From assembly GCA_024640085.1 (NCBI GenBank), contig JAHEFR010000001.1, positions 1 through 64,000 of the forward strand: a stretch of DNA of 64,000 nt, given 5' to 3'. Under the pieces are notes generated by a model. That model did not search any database. It saw only the letters and a list, made by a program, of their open reading frames with translations, and was not told where the DNA came from. Source of the DNA: Gammaproteobacteria bacterium (GTDB lineage: Bacteria > Pseudomonadota > Gammaproteobacteria > Steroidobacterales > XN24). Numbering within the stretch: position 1 is the first letter of the stretch; each line of letters opens with the position of its first letter. Shown in pieces: positions 33,492 through 45,471 of the stretch. Both the position numbers and the translations under genes were made by a program.

Positions 33492-34573
33492 GGCTGCCGG
33501 ACCACGCGGGCCGGGGACTCCACGATCTCCACCTGCACGCCATCGGCGATCTTCTGGGTGCCCTCGATGACCACCAGGTCGCCAGCCACTACGCCGGCGA
33601 GAATCTCGACCTCGCCCGGCCGGCGCTGGCCGAGAGAGACTTTCCGCTTGATGACGCGGTCGTCCGCTACAACGAATACGTACTGGTTCTCACCCTCTGG
33701 TACCAGTGATTCCTCGGGTACCACCGTCACCTTCCGGGCATCTCCCACCAGTCGCACACTCACGAACATGCCTGAGCGGATCAGTCCTTCCGGATTCGGC
33801 ACCGTGGCGCGGACCGTCATGGTCCGGGTTACGGTGTCCACCCTGGAATCCAGGGCCGTCACCGCGCCGACGAACACGGTGTCCGGATACGCCGCCGCTC
33901 GGGCGTCGACGCGCATGCCGGTGCTGACCAGGGACAGGAAACGTTCGGGGACGGCGACATCAAGCCGGACCGTCCTGTCGTCGTCCAGGGTCGTGACGAC
34001 GGTGCCCGGGGTCAACAGGCTGCCGACGCTGACCCGCCGAAGGCCTACGTGGCCCGAGAAGGGCGCCTTGATGACGGTACGATCCAGGCGCGCGCGAGCC
34101 GCCAGGACCCGGGCCTCGTCAGCCCGCAGCCTGGCCTCCAGCTGCACCATCTGGGACTCCGACACCGTGCGGGATTCAAACAGCTCCTTGCTCCGCCGGT
34201 ACTGGCTTCTGCTCTCGGCCAGTGCCGCCTCGGCCAGCGACAGGTCAGCGGCGGCTTCGTCATCGTCCAGACGCACCAGGATATCGCCGGTCGTGACCAG
34301 CTCGCCGTCGTCGAACTCGATGCCCACGACCACGTTGGTGACCCGAGAGGTAATCTCCACGGCGTCCATGGCGCGCGCCGTGCCGAGTGCCTCGATTTCG
34401 AGTGGGCGGTCGGCGTCCTCTGCCGGCGAGACCACAACGGAAGGCAGCTGCGACGATGCCGGCGCCGCCGGGGCATCGTCCGATGTCCTATCACAACCGA
34501 CGATGGCAACAGCCAGCAGGATCGTCGCGGCGATCGCCGGGGGCGTAGGTGCGCGATTATGTGTCCGGATCAT
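33488..34573 (-). CDS. RND efflux periplasmic adaptor lipoprotein
   Basis: The ATG at 34573 gives 361 residues; an upstream TTG frame extension has no support. The N-terminus ends in a lipobox (LLAVAIVGC), so the adaptor is lipid-anchored. Features of membrane-fusion proteins follow: lipoyl-like half (VVVGIEFDDGELVTTGDILVRLDD in part), a coiled-coil hairpin (about residues 105-155), the second lipoyl half (VIKAPFSGHVGLRRVSVGSLLTPG in part) and beta-barrel domains. It forms a tripartite pump with the permease that follows and an outer-membrane channel coded elsewhere. Confidence 0.93.
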   Translation of the reverse strand: MIRTHNRAPTPPAIAATILLAVAIVGCDRTSDDAPAAPASSQLPSVVVSPAEDADRPLEIEALGTARAMDAVEITSRVTNVVVGIEFDDGELVTTGDILVRLDDDEAAADLSLAEAALAESRSQYRRSKELFESRTVSESQMVQLEARLRADEARVLAARARLDRTVIKAPFSGHVGLRRVSVGSLLTPGTVVTTLDDDRTVRLDVAVPERFLSLVSTGMRVDARAAAYPDTVFVGAVTALDSRVDTVTRTMTVRATVPNPEGLIRSGMFVSVRLVGDARKVTVVPEESLVPEGENQYVFVVADDRVIKRKVSLGQRRPGEVEILAGVVAGDLVVIEGTQKIADGVQVEIVESPARVVRQP

Positions 34574-34727
34574 CGAACCGATGGAGGCTCCATATGCAGT
34601 CAATGGCCGGCCGGCTGGGTGCGGATCGGTATCGCCGCCGGATCAGGATTCTACGCCCGTGTTCGCTCGGCCGATATGGATGGAGTCGGCCAGCGAGGGA
34701 CAGCGTCCACCGCCCGGATTCGACGGA

Positions 34728-35948
34728 TCACGCTGCATGTATGCGCACCACCCGGCCGATCTCGTCCATCATCCAGCGGAGGTGATCGTAGTCCGGGTGT
34801 CGTATTCGCACCCATGCGTTGGCCATGTAGCCGGCCTCCACAGGTTGGGTCGGCGTGCCGGGTCCGGGGAACCGGGACGCCACCACCCACTCGCCGAAAC
34901 GCGACTGCACCTCATCGAGCCCATCGTACCCGGTGATGTGCCCGTCCCGCTCCGGACGCAGGGCGATCATCCCGGCGGAGTACCGCCGGCTGGGTGTGAG
35001 CCAGGTCCTGCCGTGGACAACGGCATTGGCCCAGTCCTCGTACAGGTCGAACTCGTTGGCCGCGCAATAGACGTCCCACTGGCACACGCCCGGCGGCCGG
35101 CAGCCGATCTCGGAAAACTTCAGCCCCTTGGGACCGAAGAACCATTCCATGTGGGTCGCGGACGTGTCGATCCCGAGGATCCGGATCACCTCGCGTCCCA
35201 TCTCCCGCACCTCCCTGTATCCAGGCTGATCCAGCCGGTTGGTCGTCACCATCTGGGGCGAGATCCAGCGAGTCCTCATGGCCTCCAGTACGTTGGGATA
35301 GTAGTGGGTAGCGAATTCGTGTCTTATCTCGCCTGACACCGTCAGGGTGTCGAAATAGCCCTCGTGTCCCTCGATGAATTCCTCGAGCGCTACCGGGGAC
35401 CCGTCGGCGAGGCGGGATCCGCGAATGACCGCCTCCAGTTCGCCGTCGTCATCCACGCGCCAGGTCCCGGCTGCGCCAGCCGCGTCCCTGGGCTTGACGA
35501 CGATCGGATATCCGACCCGCCGGGCGAATTCGCGGGCCTCTTCCGGGTCGGTCGTCCCCAGGGACTGGGCGCAGGGGATCCCGGCATCGCGTAGGACCTC
35601 CTTCATCGACGGTTTGTCGCGGCACAGCCAGGCCGTCCGGACCGAGGTGCCGGGTATGTCGCAGGCTTCACGGACCTTGGCCACGGTGAGGATGTGAGCC
35701 TCCACGGTCGCCTCCAGCCGATCGACCCAGAGACGGTCCTGGATGCGCCTGACTGCCCGGTGCAGGGCGCTCTCGTCCGTTACCGACGCGACCTTCTCGT
35801 ATTCGTCGATCCAGCCTCTGACCTGCTCATCCAGCCAGTCCAGGGGCCGCTCGCCGACGCCGATGACCCGGGCTCCGACTTTCTTCAGAGCACGGACGAA
35901 TTCACGCTGATTATCGGGGAATGCCGGTTCGACAAAGACGACGTTCAT
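34728..35948 (-). CDS. ATP-grasp ligase (first of two in operon)
   Basis: A 406-residue enzyme of the ATP-grasp fold: N-terminal Rossmann-like preATP-grasp (MNVVFVEPAFPDNQREFVRAL), nucleotide-binding lysine in YPIVVKPRDAAGAAGTW, hinge-side LEEFIEGHEGYFDTL and the metal-binding Glu/Arg segment LKFSEIGCRPPGV. These enzymes activate a carboxylate as acyl phosphate and join it to an amine or thiol. It is the last gene of a five-gene minus-strand operon and begins one base after the esterase stop region. The substrate is unknown. An RND pump gene pair follows 154 bases downstream on the same strand. Confidence 0.85.
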   Translation of the reverse strand: MNVVFVEPAFPDNQREFVRALKKVGARVIGVGERPLDWLDEQVRGWIDEYEKVASVTDESALHRAVRRIQDRLWVDRLEATVEAHILTVAKVREACDIPGTSVRTAWLCRDKPSMKEVLRDAGIPCAQSLGTTDPEEAREFARRVGYPIVVKPRDAAGAAGTWRVDDDGELEAVIRGSRLADGSPVALEEFIEGHEGYFDTLTVSGEIRHEFATHYYPNVLEAMRTRWISPQMVTTNRLDQPGYREVREMGREVIRILGIDTSATHMEWFFGPKGLKFSEIGCRPPGVCQWDVYCAANEFDLYEDWANAVVHGRTWLTPSRRYSAGMIALRPERDGHITGYDGLDEVQSRFGEWVVASRFPGPGTPTQPVEAGYMANAWVRIRHPDYDHLRWMMDEIGRVVRIHAA

Positions 35949-35949
35949 A

Positions 35950-36687
35950 TCAGCTCCCTCGCGTCAGCTCATCCAGGTACTGAGGCAGCATTTTTCTCCA
36001 TGTCGGCCAGTCGTGATCCCAGGCCTGCCCCCACAAGTCCACCCGGTTCGGGATGCCCTTCGCGCCGAGCAGTCTCGCCAGCCGCCACGACTCCTCCGGG
36101 TCCTCCCAGCGGCCCTCGCCACAGGGCAGGAGGATAAGCCTGCCGCGGAGCAGATCGAGCTGTGGGCCCGACTCGAGGCCGGGCAGGTAATGCAGGGGCG
36201 ACGAGAAATAGAAGTCTTCGTAGAACTCCCCGTGCAGCCACTTCTCCAGATCGTAGGTTCCGCTCATACCGACAGCGGCGCGGAAAGCATCCGGGTGCCT
36301 GCAGACGGTCGCCACAGCATTGAAGGCCCCGATGGACGCGCCGGCGGTGATGACTTCGATGTCGTCGCTGCGGCAGTCGGTCCGGATCGCCGGCAGGACC
36401 TCGTGGTATACGAAACTGTCGAAGAGATTTTGCAGTCGGGCCCGATAGAAAGGCGTCGCGCCGTCCTGGATCCACGCCCGGCCAGCCACGCTGTCACAGG
36501 AATACACCTTGATGCGGCCGGCCTCGATCAGCGGCGCCACTGCGCCGACCAGGTGGAAGCGTTCCACTTCCTCTGCATCGCCTCCGGCAGTGGGGAACAG
36601 CAGCACCGGGGCCCCGTAGTGCCCCCATCGCGCCAGACGGACTTCCCGCTCCAGTCGCGGCGAGTGCCACTGGGATGCCTCCTTCAT
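35950..36687 (-). CDS. esterase-like alpha/beta hydrolase (operon with ATP-grasp genes)
   Basis: A 245-residue alpha/beta hydrolase of the putative-esterase group (COG4947-like). The nucleophile elbow is GASIGAFNAVA, the oxyanion region VLLFPTAGGDAEE, and the likely catalytic His is in WDHDWPTWRK near the C-terminus. No signal peptide is visible, so it acts in the cytoplasm. It overlaps the second ATP-grasp gene by four bases and is followed at once by the first, so it is translated between two ligases. It may release or trim an ester- or amide-linked intermediate (inference). Confidence 0.82.
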   Translation of the reverse strand: MKEASQWHSPRLEREVRLARWGHYGAPVLLFPTAGGDAEEVERFHLVGAVAPLIEAGRIKVYSCDSVAGRAWIQDGATPFYRARLQNLFDSFVYHEVLPAIRTDCRSDDIEVITAGASIGAFNAVATVCRHPDAFRAAVGMSGTYDLEKWLHGEFYEDFYFSSPLHYLPGLESGPQLDLLRGRLILLPCGEGRWEDPEESWRLARLLGAKGIPNRVDLWGQAWDHDWPTWRKMLPQYLDELTRGS

Positions 36688-37922
36688 GCCCGGCGTTCCT
36701 GTTCTGCCCGCCAGCGCTGGATGCGGCGCCAGAACATCTCGGTGAACTCCTCGACCTCGTGGGCGGGGTACAGGGCCGCTACCTTTTCGCGGACTGCATC
36801 CAGTGCGACATTCGAGCCGAAGAACTCCCAGGCCACCTCGTCAAGATGCCCGAGGCAGGTCCCGCAGAAATCCTCGAAGCGTTCGGTTTCGAAGCGCTGG
36901 TGGGCGATCCCGGCATAGGCCGTGACCTTCTCACGGTAGCTGCGGTCGCTATCGGCAATCTCCAGATAGGGGGACCAGTCGAGATTCTTTTTCATGGAAC
37001 GGCCGGTGACGGCGCAGAACAGGGACCAGCGCACGTTTGCCATCACCAGCCACGGGAAGTGGTAGTGCAGCGATGTCACCTGGGAATCGGGGCACGCGTT
37101 GGCGAAGTCGATGGGATACCACTGGCCTCCCTGCAACAGTGCCTCGCAGGAATTGAAATCCCAGCCGAAGAAGCTGTTGATGGTGAGCGTGATGTCGTGC
37201 AGCAACTGCTCCGAGTCCGGGTCCAGGAAACCGGACTCCGGCCTGTAGCGATCATGGAGGGGCGCTGAAGGGTCGTAGTTGACCGTGCGCAGCTGGGGCC
37301 CCAGCCCCACGCAACGCACGAACAGGTCGTGGGGCAGCACGGCTTTCTGCAGGTGCATCAGCCGCGTTCCGCTCTGGTCGTAGGCCGCGTGCAGGTCCGC
37401 AGCATTGTCGATCCTGCTCACACCCACCCACGCGCCGCCGTCATAAGGCTTGAGGAAGGAGGGATAACCGAGGGTGCCGCCGATCTGGTCGAGGTCGAAG
37501 AGGTGGGCGTAGCGCAGCGTCCGCTCCAGGTCCGTGGCGGACTGATAGGTCTTCTGCGGGATGAGCCAGGTGTCCGGCACCGGCAGGCCGAGACGCATCA
37601 TGGCGCAATAGCTGGTGTGCTTCTCCATGGACTGGATCGACCACGGATTGTTGAACACGTACAGGTCGTCCATGAGGACAGCCTTCTTGATCCATTCGCG
37701 ACTCGGATAGAACCAGTGCGTAAGGCGGTCGATCACCACGTCGTATCGGCAGCCCTGCCGGAGAGAGAAGGGGTTGATGGAGACGCGCTCGACCTCGACC
37801 GAGACGGTATCTCCGCCGAAAGGAATCGCCAGGTCCAGGCGCCGGACCAACTCCTCGTAGCAGACCGGCCAGCAGATGTCTGCGCCCAGGGACAGGCCGA
37901 TTCTTTTCGTGATATCTGACAA
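36684..37922 (-). CDS. ATP-grasp ligase (second, divergent type)
   Basis: The 412-residue protein is a different ATP-grasp type from its neighbour: long N-terminal region (FGGDTVSVEVERVSINPFSL), nucleotide lysine in YPSFLKPYDGGAWVGVSR, and the metal-site strand SCEALLQGGQWYPIDFANACPD. It is probably a carboxylate-amine ligase; the substrate is unknown. A C-terminal helical extension (about residues 340-410, ending RIQRWRAEQERRA) is beyond the usual fold. It sits 142 bases after the enterochelin-esterase-like gene, a gap that could hold an internal promoter, and overlaps the esterase by four bases. Confidence 0.8.
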   Translation of the reverse strand: MSDITKRIGLSLGADICWPVCYEELVRRLDLAIPFGGDTVSVEVERVSINPFSLRQGCRYDVVIDRLTHWFYPSREWIKKAVLMDDLYVFNNPWSIQSMEKHTSYCAMMRLGLPVPDTWLIPQKTYQSATDLERTLRYAHLFDLDQIGGTLGYPSFLKPYDGGAWVGVSRIDNAADLHAAYDQSGTRLMHLQKAVLPHDLFVRCVGLGPQLRTVNYDPSAPLHDRYRPESGFLDPDSEQLLHDITLTINSFFGWDFNSCEALLQGGQWYPIDFANACPDSQVTSLHYHFPWLVMANVRWSLFCAVTGRSMKKNLDWSPYLEIADSDRSYREKVTAYAGIAHQRFETERFEDFCGTCLGHLDEVAWEFFGSNVALDAVREKVAALYPAHEVEEFTEMFWRRIQRWRAEQERRA

Positions 37923-38064
37923 GGATGTTTCTCCGCCGGCTATTTCCAGGTCGATCGCGACTCGAACCTTGTGAGCCGGTTACCAGACTTTAGGCCCTGC
38001 CGGGTGCGGGGATCAATGTCTGCCCCCGACCTGCGCCGGTAACGCCGTCGATGTCTGGTGACAG

Positions 38065-39198
38065 TTACTCGTAAACCATCCATAGCGGACCAGGGAAAAG
38101 CCAGCTCAGGCCGTCCTGCAGCCGGTCCCGCCAGTTCTCCCAGTTGTGGCCGTCCCGGACCTCGCGGTATCGGACCAACATGTCGTTAGCCTGCAGCAGC
38201 GGCACCAGCGAGCGATTCTCGTAGATCAGGGACTCGTACATCCCGCAGGCCAGGTAGATCTTGCGCGACGGGCGCCCCGGTCGGGCACGGAGCCCGTTCA
38301 TGAAACGGACCACCGGGTCGAAGACCGGACCGCGGGTGTGGGCGCCGATGTCGCTGAACGCGAAGGACCCCGACAACAGAAGCAGTCGGTCGAAGACGCC
38401 CTGGTGCTGCCAGGCCGTGGCCAATGAAGCCACGGCACCGAAGCTCGCGCCCATCAGGCAGCGGTGGCGGGGACTGTCCTCCAGCGGTAGTGACGATTGC
38501 AGCCGGGGCAGCAGTTCCTTGACCAGAAACGCGCCGTGGCCAACGTCCCCCGCGTACTCTGTCAGCCGATCTCCAGGTTGTGTCAGAGCCACGACCATGG
38601 GGGCGATCTCGAGACTATCGATGAGATTATCGAGGACCGCCTTGAGATCGGCGAACTTCAGGAAGTCGTGGCCGTCATGGACGATCATGAGCGGATACTG
38701 GCGGGTCCGGCGGAAGCGGGCCGGCAGGTAAAGCGAGACCTGCCTTGGTCCCTGCAGGTGCCGGCTGTGGAGGCTGATGGTCTCCAGCGTGCCCTGGCGT
38801 GCGCCACTGCCGGGCAGGGTCCAGTCGGGTCGCTCGTAGCCATGGGCGCGGCACACGGAATTGTGGCCGAAGGGATCCTCGGCGGTCAGCGGGTTGAGAG
38901 GATCGGTGATCCAGTCGTTGGCGCCGTTCTTCACGACGTCGAACTTGTACTCGATACGCGAACCTGGCGGCAGTTCCAGGAACAGGTGCCATAGGTCGGT
39001 GCCCGGCGCTCGCTCCAGTGACTGGGACGAAGGCAGTCCGTATACCCAGTGACGCAAGAGGACCGCGTCGGCTTCGCCGTGGTACAGGAATGTGACGCCG
39101 CCAGGATCGGTGAGGGGGACAGCATTCTCGTGCAGGAAACGTGTCACATCGGTGTCGTCGGGCTGCCGCGAAAGCAACTCGGCCAGCAGCGCGTTCAT
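38065..39198 (-). CDS. enterochelin-esterase-like hydrolase
   Basis: ATG 39198 overlaps the upstream S51-like stop (ATGA) and gives 377 residues. The N-terminal part (about residues 25-130) is a carbohydrate-binding-module-48-like beta domain as in Fes esterases (VTFLYHGEADAV, LWHLFLELPPGSRIEYKF). The C-terminal part is an esterase-D fold with LMIVHDGHDFLK, nucleophile elbow LMGASFGAVASL and catalytic His in VRDGHNWENW. Fes enzymes cleave the ester bonds of cyclic siderophores. Here, beside two ATP-grasp ligases, it more likely acts on the product of the operon; no siderophore genes are present. Confidence 0.82.
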   Translation of the reverse strand: MNALLAELLSRQPDDTDVTRFLHENAVPLTDPGGVTFLYHGEADAVLLRHWVYGLPSSQSLERAPGTDLWHLFLELPPGSRIEYKFDVVKNGANDWITDPLNPLTAEDPFGHNSVCRAHGYERPDWTLPGSGARQGTLETISLHSRHLQGPRQVSLYLPARFRRTRQYPLMIVHDGHDFLKFADLKAVLDNLIDSLEIAPMVVALTQPGDRLTEYAGDVGHGAFLVKELLPRLQSSLPLEDSPRHRCLMGASFGAVASLATAWQHQGVFDRLLLLSGSFAFSDIGAHTRGPVFDPVVRFMNGLRARPGRPSRKIYLACGMYESLIYENRSLVPLLQANDMLVRYREVRDGHNWENWRDRLQDGLSWLFPGPLWMVYE

Positions 39199-40124
39199 AC
39201 GGCCTGCACGGGGCGAATGCTGCCCTGGCGGGTGAGGCGGAACGTGGACGCGCACTCTCTCAGCTTGCCGTCCTCCCACACCAGCATCGCCCCGCTGTCG
39301 AGGGTGACACAACGCGCCGGGGTAAATCGTCTGGCGAAGCGGGAGACACGCTGTGCGTCATGCAGGCGCAGGCGCTGCCCGGCATGAGGCAGCGGGACCA
39401 CTCCCTGGAACAGGCCGAGGCCGCGGTCCGCCACTTCGGCCACACCTGCGCCCTGGGGAGGGTGATCGTGGAACAGCACGACCTGGTCGGCGAGGGCCAT
39501 GGCGCCGGCGGACCACGCGACCAGAGTACTGCCGGCCAACGCGGAGCCCAGACCGAACAGTCGCAGGCGATTCAGCAGCAGTTCCACGTGCCCTCCAGCC
39601 ACCAGTATCGCCCGGCTATCGGCGATCATCGCCCCGATCTCGACGCGATGGGACTTGATCCCCGCTTGACCGTCTGGATAAGACCTGTCGAAGGCGGCAT
39701 GCAGCCGTTCGATGCGCCTGAGATGCTGGCGGTCCAGGGTACGGAGCGCCCTCAAAGCGGCGCGTCGTTCGTTCTGGAGCAGCATGTCGCTACCCGGCTC
39801 GCGCATCATCTCCGTGTAGGCCGCGTTGGCGTGGGCGAGGCGGCGCCGATAGAGACGCTGCAATTCCATCAGTGTCTTCTGGCGCTGGCGATAGGCCCGG
39901 CGGAACCCCGGATCGGCCGCGAACACCTGCTCGGCCCTCTGATAGAGCCCGAGGTCCAGCGTCTCCCGCCCAAGGTGATGGCTCAGTTCCTGAAGCTCGC
40001 CCTCACGTTCCTGCCAGCCTGACGTGATGGTGCAGACAGGTCCGGCAGGGACGTCCAGACGATCGAGGACCAGACCAACGGTGGGGGAAATGCGCTGGGG
40101 GCCGAGCATGGCTCGCAGGGTCAT
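39195..40124 (-). CDS. S51 peptidase/cyanophycinase-like protein
   Basis: The first gene of the minus-strand ligase operon encodes 309 residues. The central part has the class-I-glutamine-amidotransferase-like signature of peptidase E and cyanophycinase: AILVAGGHVELLLNRL followed by the serine elbow TLVAWSAGAMALADQVVLFHD. The first 130 residues, rich in Arg and Leu (RRAYRQRQKTLMELQRLYRRR), are predicted all-helical and unlike ordinary S51 enzymes. Cyanophycinases cleave beta-linked aspartyl peptides made by ATP-grasp ligases, so pairing with ATP-grasp genes makes sense. Catalytic activity is not certain. Confidence 0.68.
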   Translation of the reverse strand: MTLRAMLGPQRISPTVGLVLDRLDVPAGPVCTITSGWQEREGELQELSHHLGRETLDLGLYQRAEQVFAADPGFRRAYRQRQKTLMELQRLYRRRLAHANAAYTEMMREPGSDMLLQNERRAALRALRTLDRQHLRRIERLHAAFDRSYPDGQAGIKSHRVEIGAMIADSRAILVAGGHVELLLNRLRLFGLGSALAGSTLVAWSAGAMALADQVVLFHDHPPQGAGVAEVADRGLGLFQGVVPLPHAGQRLRLHDAQRVSRFARRFTPARCVTLDSGAMLVWEDGKLRECASTFRLTRQGSIRPVQAV

Positions 40125-40219
40125 GGAGCGTAACTCTCCGGTATGGCCGGGATGCTGTCAACGATCTCCTGCTCAACCGAGGAAGGGCTGTCCGGAGCAT
40201 GGGGTAAGCGGACTGGGTT

Positions 40220-41146
40220 ATGCTTTCCGGCATGGATCATCCGGCACGGCGGCAATCATCCATGGAACGATCCGGGGCGGCCAACCCACCTGGGCGTCCC
40301 GGCCTTGGCCGCAGGCTGGCTGACGGTCTGACGGGGCTGGCAATGCGCCTCGCCTCCTGCGTCCTGGTGCTCATCTATTTCCAGGTCGGATATTACTGGA
40401 GCTACCATGCCCAGTCCGGGCCCGGCATCATCGAGGCGGCGTTGCCGATCGATCGATGGATCCCACTGGTGCCGGAGTTCATCGTCTTCTACATGCTGGG
40501 CTATCTGTTCGTGCTCGTGCCCTGCGTTCTGGTTCGCGACCGGCAGGCCTTCCAGGCAGCCACTATCGTCTTCTGCATGATGTTGACGGTGGCGTTCCTG
40601 ATGTTCCGTTACGCGCCGATCCAGATGGACAGGACCTATGCCGTGGGCAGCGACTGGTTCTCGCGACTGACCTATTTCCAGCAGACGAAGGACACGACCT
40701 ACAACAACTTTCCGAGCCTGCATGTGGCCCTGAATGTGTACGCCTACTGCCTGATCGTGTGGCAGGCCCGCCGGATCTCTGCCTGGTGGCTGCCGCTCCC
40801 CGTCCTGATTGTGTGTTCCACCCTGCTGGTCAAGCAGCACCTGTTCGTCGACGTGCTGGGCGGGCTGCTGATGGCGTGGGCGGGATTCGCCGGATTCCGG
40901 CGCCTGATGGCTCTGCCGCCGAGGACGGTCCTCTTTGCCTGGCTGGCGACCCAGGGCCTGCTTCTGATCGTTCTGGCGACCCATGTGGAGCGCCTCGCCA
41001 AGACCGGCCGCAAGATCGTTCGATTCCTGGCGGCCGGAGGGATCGACGCCGATAACGCGGCGGTGGCGTTGCTGGCCTTGATGGCGGTGACAGTTCTGGG
41101 GCAGCGGTTCGCAGACAGGGCACGCCGCCGCCGGGATAGCGGGTAG
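40220..41146 (+). CDS. PAP2-family membrane phosphatase or phosphotransferase
   Basis: A 308-residue membrane protein, with starts possible at 40220, 40232, 40262 or 40343; the first conserved part is the helix MRLASCVLVLIYFQVGYYW. At least six helices are visible. The PAP2 active-site motifs are present: NNFPSLHVALN (Ser-His) and VKQHLFVDVLGG (His and Asp). It resembles inositol phosphorylceramide synthase-like PAP2 proteins. It is divergent from the S51-like gene across 95 bases and precedes the peptidase-ligase genes by 152 bases. Its connection to the ligase system is only positional. Confidence 0.82.
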   Translation: MLSGMDHPARRQSSMERSGAANPPGRPGLGRRLADGLTGLAMRLASCVLVLIYFQVGYYWSYHAQSGPGIIEAALPIDRWIPLVPEFIVFYMLGYLFVLVPCVLVRDRQAFQAATIVFCMMLTVAFLMFRYAPIQMDRTYAVGSDWFSRLTYFQQTKDTTYNNFPSLHVALNVYAYCLIVWQARRISAWWLPLPVLIVCSTLLVKQHLFVDVLGGLLMAWAGFAGFRRLMALPPRTVLFAWLATQGLLLIVLATHVERLAKTGRKIVRFLAAGGIDADNAAVALLALMAVTVLGQRFADRARRRRDSG

Positions 41147-41298
41147 CGTTGGCGGGTTCACCCATATTTACAGCCCGACCGGAATGACTCATGATCCGCT
41201 CCGCCGCGGCGGCCGATGAGACTCCCCGGCGAGGACGACGGGCCGATTATCTGCCATCCTAGCTGGGTAGGGAGCCCTGTCCACTGCTGGAATTCCTG

Positions 41299-42057
41299 AT
41301 GACCATCCGTATCCACACCACGCCGCACGCCTCGGCAGGGCACCAGGACGATTTCCTCGATGTCCGCATGGTGCCCCAGCCGAACGACGTGACCTGCGGC
41401 CCGACCAGCCTGTATGCCGTCTACGATTTCCTCGGCAGGCCCGTTGACCTGACCCGCCTGATCCATCGGATCGATAGCCTCCCGGATGGTGGCACTCTCG
41501 GTGTTTTCCTTGGCATCGACGCACTCCAGAGGGGCCTTTCGGCGACGATCCACACCTACGACTTCAAGGTGTTCGACCCGAGCTGGCGCGGTCTCGACAA
41601 AGGGCGGCTGATGGACAAGCTCAGGGCGCAGCTCAAGTACAAGAAGGGAAAGCGGTTTACCGCATCCTCTGAGGCGTATATCGAGTTTCTCTCCCTCGGC
41701 GGCCAACTGGCTTTCGACGACCTGACGCCGGGGCTGCTCGATCGTGTGTTCGATCAGCGGCTGCCGATCCTGACCGGTCTCAACGCCACTTATCTGTACG
41801 ACATCATGAGGGAGTACACCGACAGGAACGACCTGGCACACTCAGATGATCTCAGGGGGCAGGCCGTGGGACATTTTGTGGTGTTGTGCGGCCGTCATGG
41901 CGACATCGTTCGGGTGGCGGACCCGTTCCATGGCAACCCCCTTGGAGAAGGGCATTTCTACGACGTAGAGGTTCACCGACTGATCCGCGCCATCCTCCTC
42001 GGGGCCATCACCTACGACGCCAACCTGCTGGTCATTTCGAAAGGAACACGCCAGTGA
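41299..42057 (+). CDS. C39-like cysteine peptidase-fold protein
   Basis: The 252-residue protein has a papain-like C39 pattern: Cys33 in NDVTCGPTSLYAVYDFLG, a His near residue 190 in AVGHFVVLCGRHGD and an Asp in RVADPFHGNPLG. No signal peptide is present. C39-type enzymes process peptide leaders or act as transpeptidases. It overlaps the RimK-type ligase by four bases (GTGA) and is the first of four tightly coupled genes ending at 45471. RimK ligase, GCS2 ligase, N-formylglutamate amidohydrolase-like and papain-like proteins have been noted together in comparative genomics of amidoligase systems, so a role in making or trimming a peptide-like product is inferred. Confidence 0.78.
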   Translation: MTIRIHTTPHASAGHQDDFLDVRMVPQPNDVTCGPTSLYAVYDFLGRPVDLTRLIHRIDSLPDGGTLGVFLGIDALQRGLSATIHTYDFKVFDPSWRGLDKGRLMDKLRAQLKYKKGKRFTASSEAYIEFLSLGGQLAFDDLTPGLLDRVFDQRLPILTGLNATYLYDIMREYTDRNDLAHSDDLRGQAVGHFVVLCGRHGDIVRVADPFHGNPLGEGHFYDVEVHRLIRAILLGAITYDANLLVISKGTRQ

Positions 42058-43532
42058 AACGATTCATCGTTGTCGATGAGCCCGCGGAATGGACTCTTGG
42101 GGCAGACAGCGCCCAGGTGATTTCCGTGGACGACTACCTGGCCGCGTCCCCGCCGGGTGGCAAGAGCCTGCGGATTTTCAATCTGGCCGGGTCATACCGG
42201 TACCAGTCGCGGGGCTACTACGTGTCACTGCTGGCCGAGGCCCGGGGTCACAAAGTCATTCCCAGCGTCAAGACCATCCAGGAACTGAATGCCCCGGGCA
42301 TCGTGCGCTTCCTGCCGGCGGAGGTGGATTCACTCGTTCAACAGAGCCTCAGGCGCATCAAGTCGGACGACTTCACTCTCACGGTCTATTTTGGGGAGAA
42401 CATGGCCGCCAAGCATGGGCGCCTGGCATCCGCCCTGTATCAGTTGTTCCAGGCGCCGTTTCTGCGGTTCCGGTTTCGGCGTGGCCGGGAGACCTGGAGC
42501 ATCAGGGGCGTGCGGGCCCTCGCCGTGGATGACATCCCCGAGTCCCACGTGGAATTCGTGCGGGAGGCGGCGCGCCGGTATTTCAAGCGCAAGCGTTTCC
42601 CCTCAGAACGTCGGGACCGGTCCCAGCATGATCTGGCCATCCTGGTGAATCCCGAGGAATCGGAACCGCCATCGGACCGCAAGGCGATCCAGAATTTCGT
42701 CCAGGCCGCCCGCAAGGAGGGGTTCAGCGTCGAGCTGATCGGGCGGTCGGATTACCATCGCCTGGCGGAATTCGACGCCCTGTTTATCCGTGAGACCACC
42801 TCGGTGAATCATCACACCTGGCGGTTCTCCCTGAGGGCCCAGTTCGAGGGGCTGGCGGTCATTGACGATCCGGATTCGATCCTGAAGTGCGCCAACAAGG
42901 TATTCCTCGCGGAGGTGCTGAAAAGCGCCCGCATCTCCATCCCGGAAACGGTCATCGTCAGCCGGGAAAATTACCGGGAAGCTCTCGAGATCCTCGGGCT
43001 GCCCTGCGTTTTGAAGCGACCGGACTCGTCGTTCTCCCAGGGGGTGGTCAAGGTCTCCAGCAGGGAGGAATTCAAAAAACAGGCCGACCTGATGCTGGCC
43101 GGATCGGACCTGCTGATCGCCCAGGAATTCATCCCCACTCCTTTCGACTGGCGTATCGGGGTGCTGGAGGGCAGGCCGTTATACGCCTGCAAGTATTTCA
43201 TGGCCCGCGGCCATTGGCAGATCTACAACTGGGCGAGTAAGAGCCGCTCGGACGTCTCGGGAGGATGGGAAACGCTGGCCGTGGACGACGCGCCTGGGCC
43301 CATCGTCAAGGCCGCGCTTGAAGCAGCCAGGCTGGTGGGCAATGGACTCTACGGCGTCGATCTCAAGGATGTCTCCGGCAGACCGGTGGTCATCGAAATC
43401 AACGACAACCCGAGCATCGAGTCGGAAGTAGAGGACGCCGTCCTCGGCAACGAACTCTACGCCACGATCATGCGCGCGCTGCGTCGCCGGGTGGAAGCGC
43501 GGCTGGAGGGCCGTCCCGGAGCCGGGGCATGA
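42054..43532 (+). CDS. RimK-family ATP-grasp ligase with RLAN N-terminal domain
   Basis: GTG 42054, overlapping the upstream stop, gives 492 residues. Residues about 1-200 form the RimK-like ATP-grasp N-terminal (RLAN) domain (RIFNLAGSYRYQSRGYYVSLL in part, with the conserved GYYVS). The ATP-grasp part shows LGLPCVLKRPDSSFSQGVVKV with the nucleotide lysine, LLIAQEFIPTPFDWRIGVL and the metal-site VIEINDNPSIESEVED. RimK enzymes add glutamate or other amino acids to a peptide or protein. The acceptor here is unknown. It overlaps the GCS2 gene by four bases. Confidence 0.92.
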   Translation: MKRFIVVDEPAEWTLGADSAQVISVDDYLAASPPGGKSLRIFNLAGSYRYQSRGYYVSLLAEARGHKVIPSVKTIQELNAPGIVRFLPAEVDSLVQQSLRRIKSDDFTLTVYFGENMAAKHGRLASALYQLFQAPFLRFRFRRGRETWSIRGVRALAVDDIPESHVEFVREAARRYFKRKRFPSERRDRSQHDLAILVNPEESEPPSDRKAIQNFVQAARKEGFSVELIGRSDYHRLAEFDALFIRETTSVNHHTWRFSLRAQFEGLAVIDDPDSILKCANKVFLAEVLKSARISIPETVIVSRENYREALEILGLPCVLKRPDSSFSQGVVKVSSREEFKKQADLMLAGSDLLIAQEFIPTPFDWRIGVLEGRPLYACKYFMARGHWQIYNWASKSRSDVSGGWETLAVDDAPGPIVKAALEAARLVGNGLYGVDLKDVSGRPVVIEINDNPSIESEVEDAVLGNELYATIMRALRRRVEARLEGRPGAGA

Positions 43533-44761
43533 CCGCTGGGGCTCTGTGGAGCCTGTTCGAAGTCTTCGGGGTCGAGATGGAGTACATGATCGTCGACCGG
43601 GGGACGCTCGCGGTGAACCCGATCGCCGATGAGTTGCTACGTTCGATGGCCGGGGAGTACGTCGACGACATCGAGAATGGCGAGTTTGGCTGGTCCAATG
43701 AATTGGTCTGCCACGTCATCGAACTGAAGACCAACGGGCCCACTCCGACCCTGGATGGGCTGGCCAGGGGATTCCACGACCAGATCAGGTTCATCAACGA
43801 TCGTCTGCGTCCCCAAGGCGCCATGCTTCTCGGGACCGGAGCGCATCCTTTGATGGATCCGGAACGGGACACCCGGCTCTGGCCCCATGGCAACCGGGAA
43901 ATCTATCACCAGTACGACCGTATTTTCGGTTGCCGCGGGCACGGGTGGTCGAACCTCCAGAGTGTCCACCTGAACCTACCGTTCCGCGGGGACGAGGAAT
44001 TCGGCCGCCTGCATGCCGCCGTCCGCCTTGTCTTGCCGATTATCCCCGCACTCGCGGCCAGTACGCCGATCCTGGACGGCCAGGTGACAGGTCTGATGGA
44101 CAGCCGGCTCGAGACCTATCGCCACAACCAGGATCGGATACCGTCCATCGCCGGCCGGGTCATCCCGGAGCGGGTATTCACGGAAGAGGCCTACCACCGG
44201 AAGATATTCGACCGCATCAGGGAGGACATCGCCCCCCATGATCCGGACGGCATTCTCGACGTCCTGTTCCTGAACTCGAGGGGCGCTATCGCGCGTTTTG
44301 ACCGCAACGCGATCGAGATCCGGGTCATCGACATCCAGGAGTGCCCGGCGGCGGATGTGGCCATCCAGGACCTGCTGGTGGAGACCCTGCGCCGAATCGT
44401 CAATCGCCCCGGCGTCCCGCTGGACGAACAACAGGCCTGGCCGGAGGACCTGCTGGCCGACATCTTCCTGGCGGTGGTGAGGGACGGCGACGAGGCCGTC
44501 ATTGCCGATCGTGATTATCTGCAGGCGCTGGGGATCGACGGGCGGAGGATGAAGGCGGGCCGGGTCTGGGCTACGCTGGCAGAGTCAGCGGCCGATGCGC
44601 TGTTCGAAAACAGCCGGGCTCCGCTGACGCGAATCCTGGGCAACGGCCCGTTGGCGAGGAGGCTGGTCGGCAGGCTCGGGCCCCGGCCGGGGCACGCGGA
44701 ACTGGTGGCGACCTACCGTCAGTTGGCGGACTGTCTGCAGGAGAACCGGCTCTGGCCATGA
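43529..44761 (+). CDS. GCS2-type carboxylate-amine ligase
   Basis: A 410-residue protein of the glutamate-cysteine ligase 2 family (YbdK-like): VFGVEMEYMIVDRGTLAVNP at the ATP/Mg site, LVCHVIELKTNGP, LGTGAHPLMDPERDT, the HGWSNLQSVHLNLPF region and AIEIRVIDIQECPAADV. GCS2 enzymes join the carboxylate of glutamate to the amine of cysteine or other compounds. The gene is sandwiched, with four-base overlaps, between the RimK-type ligase and the N-formylglutamate amidohydrolase-like gene, so the three act together. It may provide a gamma-glutamyl unit (inference). Confidence 0.9.
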   Translation: MTAGALWSLFEVFGVEMEYMIVDRGTLAVNPIADELLRSMAGEYVDDIENGEFGWSNELVCHVIELKTNGPTPTLDGLARGFHDQIRFINDRLRPQGAMLLGTGAHPLMDPERDTRLWPHGNREIYHQYDRIFGCRGHGWSNLQSVHLNLPFRGDEEFGRLHAAVRLVLPIIPALAASTPILDGQVTGLMDSRLETYRHNQDRIPSIAGRVIPERVFTEEAYHRKIFDRIREDIAPHDPDGILDVLFLNSRGAIARFDRNAIEIRVIDIQECPAADVAIQDLLVETLRRIVNRPGVPLDEQQAWPEDLLADIFLAVVRDGDEAVIADRDYLQALGIDGRRMKAGRVWATLAESAADALFENSRAPLTRILGNGPLARRLVGRLGPRPGHAELVATYRQLADCLQENRLWP

Positions 44762-45471
44762 TTCGCTGGGTCCTGACCTGCGAGCACGGCGGGCACAGGG
44801 TCCCGGCCGAGTGGCGGCACCTGTTCCACGGCGCCGAAGACATATTGCGGTCTCATCGGGGCTGGGACCGTGGCGCGCTTTGCACATTCCGGACCCTCGC
44901 GCCAGAGATCGCCGATGAAGCCTTCTATTCCACGACCACCCGGCTCCTGGTCGACCTGAACCGGTCCCCGCACCACCGGGCGGTGTTCTCGGAGTTCACG
45001 CGAGACTTGCCTGCGGCCGACAGGGCCAGTCTGCTGCGTCGTCATTACCACCCCTGGCGGCGTCGTGTGGCGGACAGGATCAGACGATGGAGGCTGCAGG
45101 GGCACTCCGTCATCCATATCTCTGTCCACAGCTTTACTCCGGTGCTGGACGGCCACGTCCGCAATGCGGACGTGGGGCTGCTTTACGATCCCGGAAGGGA
45201 ATTGGAGAAGGCCGTCTGCCGCCGCTGGCGGAAATGGCTCACCCGGCTGTCGCCGGACTGTCGGGTGCGGCTCAATTATCCATACCGGGGGACTGCCGAC
45301 GGCTTCACCAAGTGGCTCAGACAGGAGCATCCCACCGGTTACGCCGGAATCGAACTCGAGCTGAATGAGGGCAACGTGGGTCGCCGTTGTGCCGAGGTGG
45401 CGACCCATGTCCTGGAATCCCTCATCCGGCTCAAGCAGGAACTTTCCGATCCATCGCGCACAGAAAGGTAA
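44758..45471 (+). CDS. N-formylglutamate amidohydrolase-like protein
   Basis: A 237-residue protein with the family pattern: LTCEHGGHRVPAEWR near the N-terminus, HRGWDRGAL, TTRLLVDLNRSPHH, SVHSFTPVLDG and EIELNEG-like IELELNEGNVG near the end, including His and Glu residues of the zinc site. Such enzymes cleave N-acyl-glutamate bonds. In RimK/GCS2 operons it probably removes an N-acyl or amide group from the made product. It overlaps the GCS2 gene by four bases. Its last 41 bases overlap a small convergent gene. Confidence 0.9.
   Translation: MIRWVLTCEHGGHRVPAEWRHLFHGAEDILRSHRGWDRGALCTFRTLAPEIADEAFYSTTTRLLVDLNRSPHHRAVFSEFTRDLPAADRASLLRRHYHPWRRRVADRIRRWRLQGHSVIHISVHSFTPVLDGHVRNADVGLLYDPGRELEKAVCRRWRKWLTRLSPDCRVRLNYPYRGTADGFTKWLRQEHPTGYAGIELELNEGNVGRRCAEVATHVLESLIRLKQELSDPSRTER

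Follow-up and report, generated by a model that had tools for sequence, protein, structure and literature searches.

At positions 34,728 to 40,124 of the window, by which we mean the whole 64,000-nucleotide stretch analysed here (positions 1 to 64,000 of contig JAHEFR010000001.1, Gammaproteobacteria bacterium assembly GCA_024640085.1), five genes code for two ATP-grasp ligases (A1 and A2), two serine esterases (E1 and E2) and an S51-like protein. They represent a conserved module that, in relatives from several phyla, is coupled to a distinct clade of glycogen synthase, here termed GlgA*. We propose, with a probability of about 45%, that the ligases and serine hydrolases of this operon make and trim an amino-acid-containing alpha-glucan derivative, joined by GlgA* in a fuller form of the system. 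This proposal builds on features that are directly seen, namely the gene order, the conserved active sites, the co-inheritance of GlgA* and the pairing of A1-type ligases with GlgA*.

An earlier note on this DNA, made from the sequence alone, had read the five genes as a single pathway, an idea that hung on their neighbourhood being conserved in related genomes. A scan of 84,980 bacterial and archaeal species genomes yielded 480 pattern hits, from which 426 A2 relatives were confirmed; our first sample consists of the best 80 of these 426, and is hence biased to close relatives. These 80 loci span at least seven phyla (3/80 are unassigned) and include Gamma- and Alphaproteobacteria, Acidobacteriota, Actinomycetota, Myxococcota, Planctomycetota, Gemmatimonadota and one Eiseniibacteriota. 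Among the loci with room on the contig, E1 was found directly after A2 in 66/77, E2 directly before A2 in 68/78, and the S51 gene before E2 in 46/74. A second sample of 48 loci (8 of 11 Acidobacteriota and 40 of 69 Myxococcota), hand-picked mainly for room on the contig and overlapping the first in at least two places (L113 with L030, L115 with L085), gave corresponding counts of 28/46, 24/47 and 30/47; outside the set of families searched for, no neighbour family was common to more than 5/48 of its loci. The neighbourhood is conserved far above chance, and the set of multiple ligases and two esterases emerges as a conserved module with invariant active-site residues.

The nearest relative, L019 (76% in A2), shares all five genes, with no glycogen gene lying within 10 kb. 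Genomes of Tropicimonas and Boseongicola are among those that carry E2-A2-E1. A search for A2 in the window's class matched 14/274 genomes, namely its own and 13 with short partial matches of 18-28 bits, and a search of the phylum found one other genome among 398 (E 1e-6). A plasmid collection held no match to A2 at E 1e-5. As the earlier note had suspected in saying that it knew of no characterised pathway with this gene set, the five-gene set was not found described in those parts of the literature reached by full-text search, although an earlier depiction in a 2009 amidoligase survey cannot be excluded. The first 300,000 characters of a 2024 review of prokaryotic alpha-glucan enzymes mention neither an esterase nor CBM48 (PMC11046441).

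The link to glycogen came from a clustering of all adjoining open reading frames of at least 80 amino acids around the 80 loci, with no prior choice of families. The most frequent families from outside the operon were a 492-amino-acid GlgA (31 loci), a 427-amino-acid GlgC (16 loci) and two GCS2-type ligases (14 and 13 loci); next came smaller families of GlgX, GlgP, FGase, MalQ and GlgB at 6-7 loci each. While the GlgC, GlgX, GlgP, FGase, MalQ and GlgB clusters were named by reading, the 492-amino-acid family was identified as glycogen synthase by profile, with four representatives scoring >500 bits with TIGR02095. Counted by profile, GlgA was present in 33/80 loci and any glycogen gene in 41/80 (16/32 and 17/32 among loci with full flanks). 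A glycogen gene lay nearby in 11/15 loci of Acidobacteriota, 10/11 of Myxococcota and 13/21 of Gammaproteobacteria, and in 0/4 of Acidimicrobiia. In 21/80 loci, judged by position, glycogen synthase was directly followed by an A1-type ligase. The same profile searches placed YbdK in 14/80 loci and GCS2-CBS in 15/80, and a BesA-like ligase family, one member of which was scored (164 bits against a cut-off of 750), occurred in 5/80. Of the earlier note's interpretation, the conserved ligase and esterase module stands, its cyanophycinase link does not (see below), and the glycogen synthase partner seen in relatives had been overlooked. Separately, an AMP-forming (adenylation-type) ligase family was observed within 10 kb of A2 in 6/80 loci (L024, L029, L046, L064, L066 and L091), at varied distances and on varied strands.

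Trees of A1, GlgA and A2 were built with FastTree; the A2 tree retains one row, L129, that is mis-translated, judging by its branch length. In the GlgA tree of 53 proteins, 32/34 of the GlgA rows from the 80 loci fell into a 38-row clade with support 98, GlgA*, which is separate from the sampled ordinary GlgA, that of the window's own genome among them. The rows that fell outside it are a second, ordinary-type GlgA of locus L055 and a divergent copy at L041. At L055 (4631-6187, 12131-13597), the ordinary-type GlgA belongs to a glgP-B-A-C cluster, and a GlgA*-A1 pair lies a few kb off.

GlgA* tracks A2 genome-wide. Acidobacteriota were counted as A2-positive at >700 bits, with a GlgA* limit of >700 bits there; the score limit for GlgA* was chosen once the gap in scores had been seen, which runs from 717 to 572 bits in Acidobacteriota and from 640 to 538 bits in Myxococcota. 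Among 297 Acidobacteriota, 11 carry A2, and GlgA* was found in 9/11 of these versus 0/286 of the others (Fisher 1.3e-15), the 286 including 76 with a distant A2 homologue. Among 235 Myxococcota, 69 carry A2, with GlgA* in 20/69 versus 2/166 (Fisher 3.5e-10). The GlgA* profile itself contained at least two of the counted genomes, and the Fisher values without them are 3.4e-14 and 1.1e-9, respectively; all such values overstate the association, since related genomes are non-independent. Within the nine Acidobacteriota that have both genes, the two are neighbours in one, lie about 490 kb apart in one and are on different draft contigs in seven, so that co-occurrence does not reflect mere linkage. 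Ordinary GlgA is no such marker, and its presence in a genome is no evidence, because GlgA is common: at E 1e-60 any GlgA was found in 208/297 Acidobacteriota and 158/235 Myxococcota, and 44/48 tested genomes had one, 39 of them over the cut-off.

A1-type ligases tie the two parts together. A tree of 86 A1-type proteins has three deep clades, and the window's A1 falls in one of 45 rows that also holds copies located after E1, after GlgA (19/20 of those in the tree) or divergently from S51. In other phyla, therefore, glycogen synthase is directly followed by a gene closely homologous to A1, the last of the window's operon. Where GlgA* loci of A2-positive genomes lie apart from A2, an A1-type ligase adjoins in 10/13, as compared with 0/5 ordinary GlgA controls and 0/2 GlgA* loci of A2-negative genomes. 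The module seems to exist as two half-operons, S51-E2-A2-E1 and GlgA*-A1 (alpha, beta, gamma), which some lineages have joined and others keep apart. The coupling of the module with GlgA* in relatives is well supported.

The ligases themselves are, as the earlier note had said, dissimilar: matches to solved structures and a predicted model of A2 place them in two clearly different ATP-grasp families. ATP-grasp enzymes convert a carboxylate into an acyl-phosphate, which is then joined to an amine or, rarely, a hydroxyl. A1 scores 34.2 bits with PF02222 (cut-off 27), and its Lys112, Lys152, Glu268 and Glu280 are invariant in 18/18 aligned sequences. Among solved structures it is best matched by the L-amino acid ligase 4wd3 (E 3.5e-23), and BL00235 and BacD were matched too; by sequence A1 is of the L-amino-acid-ligase type, a kin of dipeptide-forming ligases. 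Residues 280-284 of A1, at the metal-binding end of the ATP-grasp fold, read Glu-Ile-Gly-Cys-Arg, where an Asn is usual, and Glu280, Gly282, Cys283 and Arg284 are invariant in 18/18. A2 falls below every Pfam cut-off (best PF07478, 18.6 versus 24 bits), and its sequence resembles D-Ala-D-Ala ligases weakly. Its predicted model (predicted local distance difference test, pLDDT, 77.9) matches D-Ala-D-Ala ligase 5bpf with a Foldseek E of 2.5e-9, along with RimK and ArgX, and Lys158, Asp255, Asp272 and Asn275 are invariant in 81/81 sequences. On its predicted fold and the conserved catalytic Lys and Asp/Asn ligands, A2 can be assigned to the ATP-grasp superfamily.

Both esterases score above the Pfam cut-off for PF00756, whose enzymes carry out acyl ester hydrolysis or transfer, and both have the residues of serine esterases: Ser252/His351 of E2 are invariant in 71/71 and Ser118/His225 of E1 in 59/59. 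E1 has no solved relative at E 0.001. The top solved match of E2 is enterochelin esterase 2b20 (E 7e-24), and CBM48-bearing feruloyl esterases were matched too; with the curated Fes model NF007758 it reached 99.7 bits, against a cut-off of 222, and so falls outside that family. At E up to 0.1, the N-terminal domains of 26 E2 members matched Enterochelin_N in 25, CBM_20 in 10 and CBM_48 in 6, the matches of the window's E2 all being below cut-off (CBM_48 15.2 versus 22.4 bits). No signal peptide was apparent by eye in E2, and both E1 and E2 are probably cytoplasmic.

The S51-like protein is the member on which the earlier note's comparison with cyanophycinase turned. It has the S51 fold (PF03575, 26.6 versus 23.9 bits), and its predicted model (pLDDT 90.4) is a peptidase-E/cyanophycinase fold with a long helical insert at about residues 60-168, with Z 16-17 to cyanophycinase and pseudo-CphB (VIA Z 16.9 to pseudo-CphB 7uqv over 204 residues). 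This likeness, and the sharing of an operon with ATP-grasp ligases, would suit a cyanophycin-like reserve in which the ligases build an amide polymer that the S51-like protein degrades. Against this, the window's protein matched no NCBIfam model up to E 0.1, the cyanophycinase model TIGR02069 included. Ser205 is kept in 33/34 relatives, but the position aligned with the peptidase-E His, by an alignment that is itself weak (E 0.29), is a His in 17/34. The five window proteins contain no Mur-ligase domain (Pfam), and S51 was not found directly upstream of E2 in 28/74 relatives with room. Moreover, a genuine pair of cyanophycin synthetase (1113 bits) and cyanophycinase (256.3 bits) is encoded elsewhere in the genome (G000:C65, L174: 1871-5504). 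A cyanophycin-type reserve was rejected on the failure of the S51-like protein with NCBIfam and on the separate true pair, and we consider it very improbable. Asp131 and His134, which lie inside the helical insert, are invariant in 34/34, unlike the fold's usual His position, and could form a new active or binding site.

The layout of the operon is given in Table 1. The open reading frames were confirmed where the earlier note had placed them, all on the minus strand, in the transcription order S51-like, E2, A2, E1, A1. The spacing or overlap of 1-4 bases that it described for most of the genes holds at three junctions (a 4-base overlap at S51/E2 and at A2/E1, and a 1-base gap at E1/A1); at E2/A2 the gap is 142 bases. 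E2 had been listed with a TTG start at 39312 (415 amino acids); its start is most likely the in-frame ATG at 39198, which overlaps the S51 stop by 4 bases, a junction also seen in the nearest relative, L019. The 142-base gap leaves little room for a precursor peptide gene of a graspetide-type ribosomally synthesized and post-translationally modified peptide. A promoter scan of 34500-40400 found none, and GC content is 62-66% throughout the window in 4-kb steps.

Table 1 Features of the five-gene operon and of the operon that lies back to back with it
Feature	Position	Strand	Remarks
S51-like protein, 309 aa	39195..40124	-	class-I-glutaminase/peptidase-E fold, helical insert
E2, Fes-like serine esterase, 377 aa	38065..39198	-	N-terminal Enterochelin_N/CBM48-like domain
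A2, divergent ATP-grasp ligase, 412 aa, TTG start	36684..37922	-	module's signature gene
E1, second serine esterase/acyltransferase-like hydrolase, 245 aa	35950..36687	-	PF00756 32.4 bits
A1, L-amino-acid-ligase-type ATP-grasp ligase, 406 aa	34728..35948	-	PF02222; 4wd3
Divergent operon	40220-45471	+	PAP2 phosphatase, C39-like, RLAN/RimK-like ATP-grasp, GCS2-type ligase, FGase

The divergent operon of Table 1 represents a second amide-ligase set that starts 95 bases upstream of the five-gene operon. It was considered as a part of the same system and set aside: its C39-like, RimK-like, GCS2 and FGase families were found in 0/80 of the relatives' neighbourhoods, and PAP2 in one (E 1e-5).

Within the proposed system, A1 and A2, along with YbdK or GCS2-CBS in some hosts, would activate carboxyls as acyl-phosphates to form an amino-acid or short-peptide unit. 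This unit would be attached to an alpha-glucan, or would serve as the starting point from which the glucan is extended, and E1 and E2 may transfer or remove it through an ester link, with E2 docking on the glucan via its CBM48-like domain. The S51-fold protein would act as an accessory. The fuller form would add GlgA* and as many as two additional A1-type ligases, whereas a lineage such as that of the window, which has no GlgA*, might apply the same chemistry to ordinary glycogen or release a free product. The identity of the product is a guess. A more specific version, a nitrogen-containing alpha-glucan in which GlgA* and up to four ATP-grasp ligases would couple amino acids or short peptides to glycogen in the cytoplasm, the conjugate being trimmed by esterases that dock on the glucan, we regard as rather unlikely, if far from negligible.

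Several observations weigh against an alpha-glucan product. The window does not have the GlgA*-linked form: no glycogen gene lies near the operon (25000-51000), and the genome's own GlgA, the one copy above cut-off, sits beside GlgC and groups outside the GlgA* clade. This genome (95.8% complete) holds a single A1 of the family (792 bits, the next scoring 35) and is without the beta and gamma ligases, so the claim of a coupling to glycogen rests on the relatives. Even there, GlgA lies nearby in only 9/48 loci of the second sample, and a glycogen gene in 1/18 loci of Alphaproteobacteria; 8 of these 18 encode a YbdK-type ligase instead, which in 7 is placed upstream of A2. GlgA* is absent from 49/69 A2-positive Myxococcota and 2/11 A2-positive Acidobacteriota, 2 Myxococcota carry it without A2 and without A1 neighbours, and at 3/13 of the GlgA* loci that stand apart from A2 an A1 neighbour is missing. 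The profile resemblance that would speak for glycogen binding by E2 is weak.

Such observations fit a different reading, in which the module would make a free small molecule (a modified dipeptide, an osmolyte or a signal) co-regulated with carbon storage, and GlgA* would be a co-inherited neighbour that supplies glycogen in times of stress and not a partner acting on the same molecule. The 17/18 loci of Alphaproteobacteria with no glycogen genes nearby speak for it, as does the window itself, and the YbdK, GCS2-CBS and BesA-like ligases found around A2 would suit small peptide-like products. The pairing of GlgA with A1 at 21 loci, as well as at GlgA* loci apart from A2, and the separation of GlgA* as a clade exceed what co-regulation would need; we hold a free small molecule to be quite possible, while leaning against it. 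The distant kin of A2 bear on the same question. Homologues at about 120-173 bits were found in 76 further genomes of the 297 Acidobacteriota, and a YbdK-type ligase stood alongside in 5 of the 12 such loci looked at (L175-L186), which again would suit a small molecule. Because these homologues sit with YbdK-type ligases, they suggest that A2 and a GCS2-type ligase are an old amide-forming pair and the glycogen link a later elaboration. Proteins weakly resembling circularly permuted ATP-grasp enzymes often lie beside the distant A2 homologues: of six neighbours tested, five hit models of that kind at E 0.001, some of them below cut-off. One of the distant loci, L178, combines the A2 homologue and a YbdK-type ligase with an E1-type esterase and an M29-like peptidase.

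Two further readings start from single members of the module. The resemblance of the A2 model to RimK and ArgX, besides Ddl, would allow for protein modification, with A2 and A1 ligating amino acids onto a protein target and E1, E2 and S51 reversing this, yet none of the recurrent neighbours (open reading frames of at least 80 amino acids) was recognised as a conserved target or carrier protein, and two serine esterases are ill-suited to amide tags, which leaves this reading improbable. That Fes is the top solved match of E2, which scores 99.7 bits with the enterochelin esterase model, and that an AMP-forming ligase family occurs in 6/80 loci, would suit a pathway to a siderophore or catecholate ester that is released by a Fes-type esterase. 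That score is far under the curated cut-off, however, and besides the adenylating family no non-ribosomal peptide synthetase, catechol or iron-transport family was recognised on reading the 25 largest neighbour clusters, so that such a pathway appears scarcely credible.

Bacterial glycogen is commonly presented as a polymer of glucose alone, the product of a few well-known genes. That conserved amide ligases and esterases track GlgA* across phyla suggests a modified form of glycogen or else an unknown metabolite linked with carbon storage, and the association of the module with a dedicated glycogen synthase is hinting at an undescribed amino-acid-containing glycogen derivative. If a nitrogen-containing glucan were indeed made, it could combine the storage or signalling of carbon and nitrogen in a single molecule, across Acidobacteriota, Myxococcota, Planctomycetota and Proteobacteria. 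In addition, the glycogen link makes the product searchable, and offers a way towards the function of several protein families that have none assigned.

Among known systems, the predicted amidoligase/ATP-grasp operons, reportedly described by Iyer, Aravind and co-workers in 2009, are reported to resemble the module in combining several ATP-grasp and GCS2-type ligases with hydrolases in one operon of unknown product; the module would differ from them in its Fes-like and second esterases, its divergent A2 and the dedicated glycogen synthase of its relatives. Cyanophycin synthetase and cyanophycinase likewise join an ATP-grasp ligase to an S51-fold protein, but they differ from the operon in family model, His conservation and ligase type, with the true pair encoded elsewhere in the same genome. 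E2 shares its domain order and its conserved Ser and His with Fes and the CBM48-CE1 feruloyl esterases; unlike Fes, it scores under the curated cut-off and has no recognised siderophore gene set alongside. The L-amino acid ligases (4wd3, BL00235 and BacD) are set apart from A1 by the latter's invariant Glu-Ile-Gly-Cys-Arg and by the clades of their own that A1 relatives form beside A2 and GlgA*. Finally, the GlgA* loci are like bacterial glg operons (GlgA, GlgC, GlgB, GlgX, GlgP) in having a GlgA that, in four representatives, scores >500 bits with the family model and, at many loci, GlgC and other glg genes nearby, and differ from ordinary glg operons in that GlgA* forms a separate clade, tracks A2 and often lies beside A1-type ATP-grasp genes.

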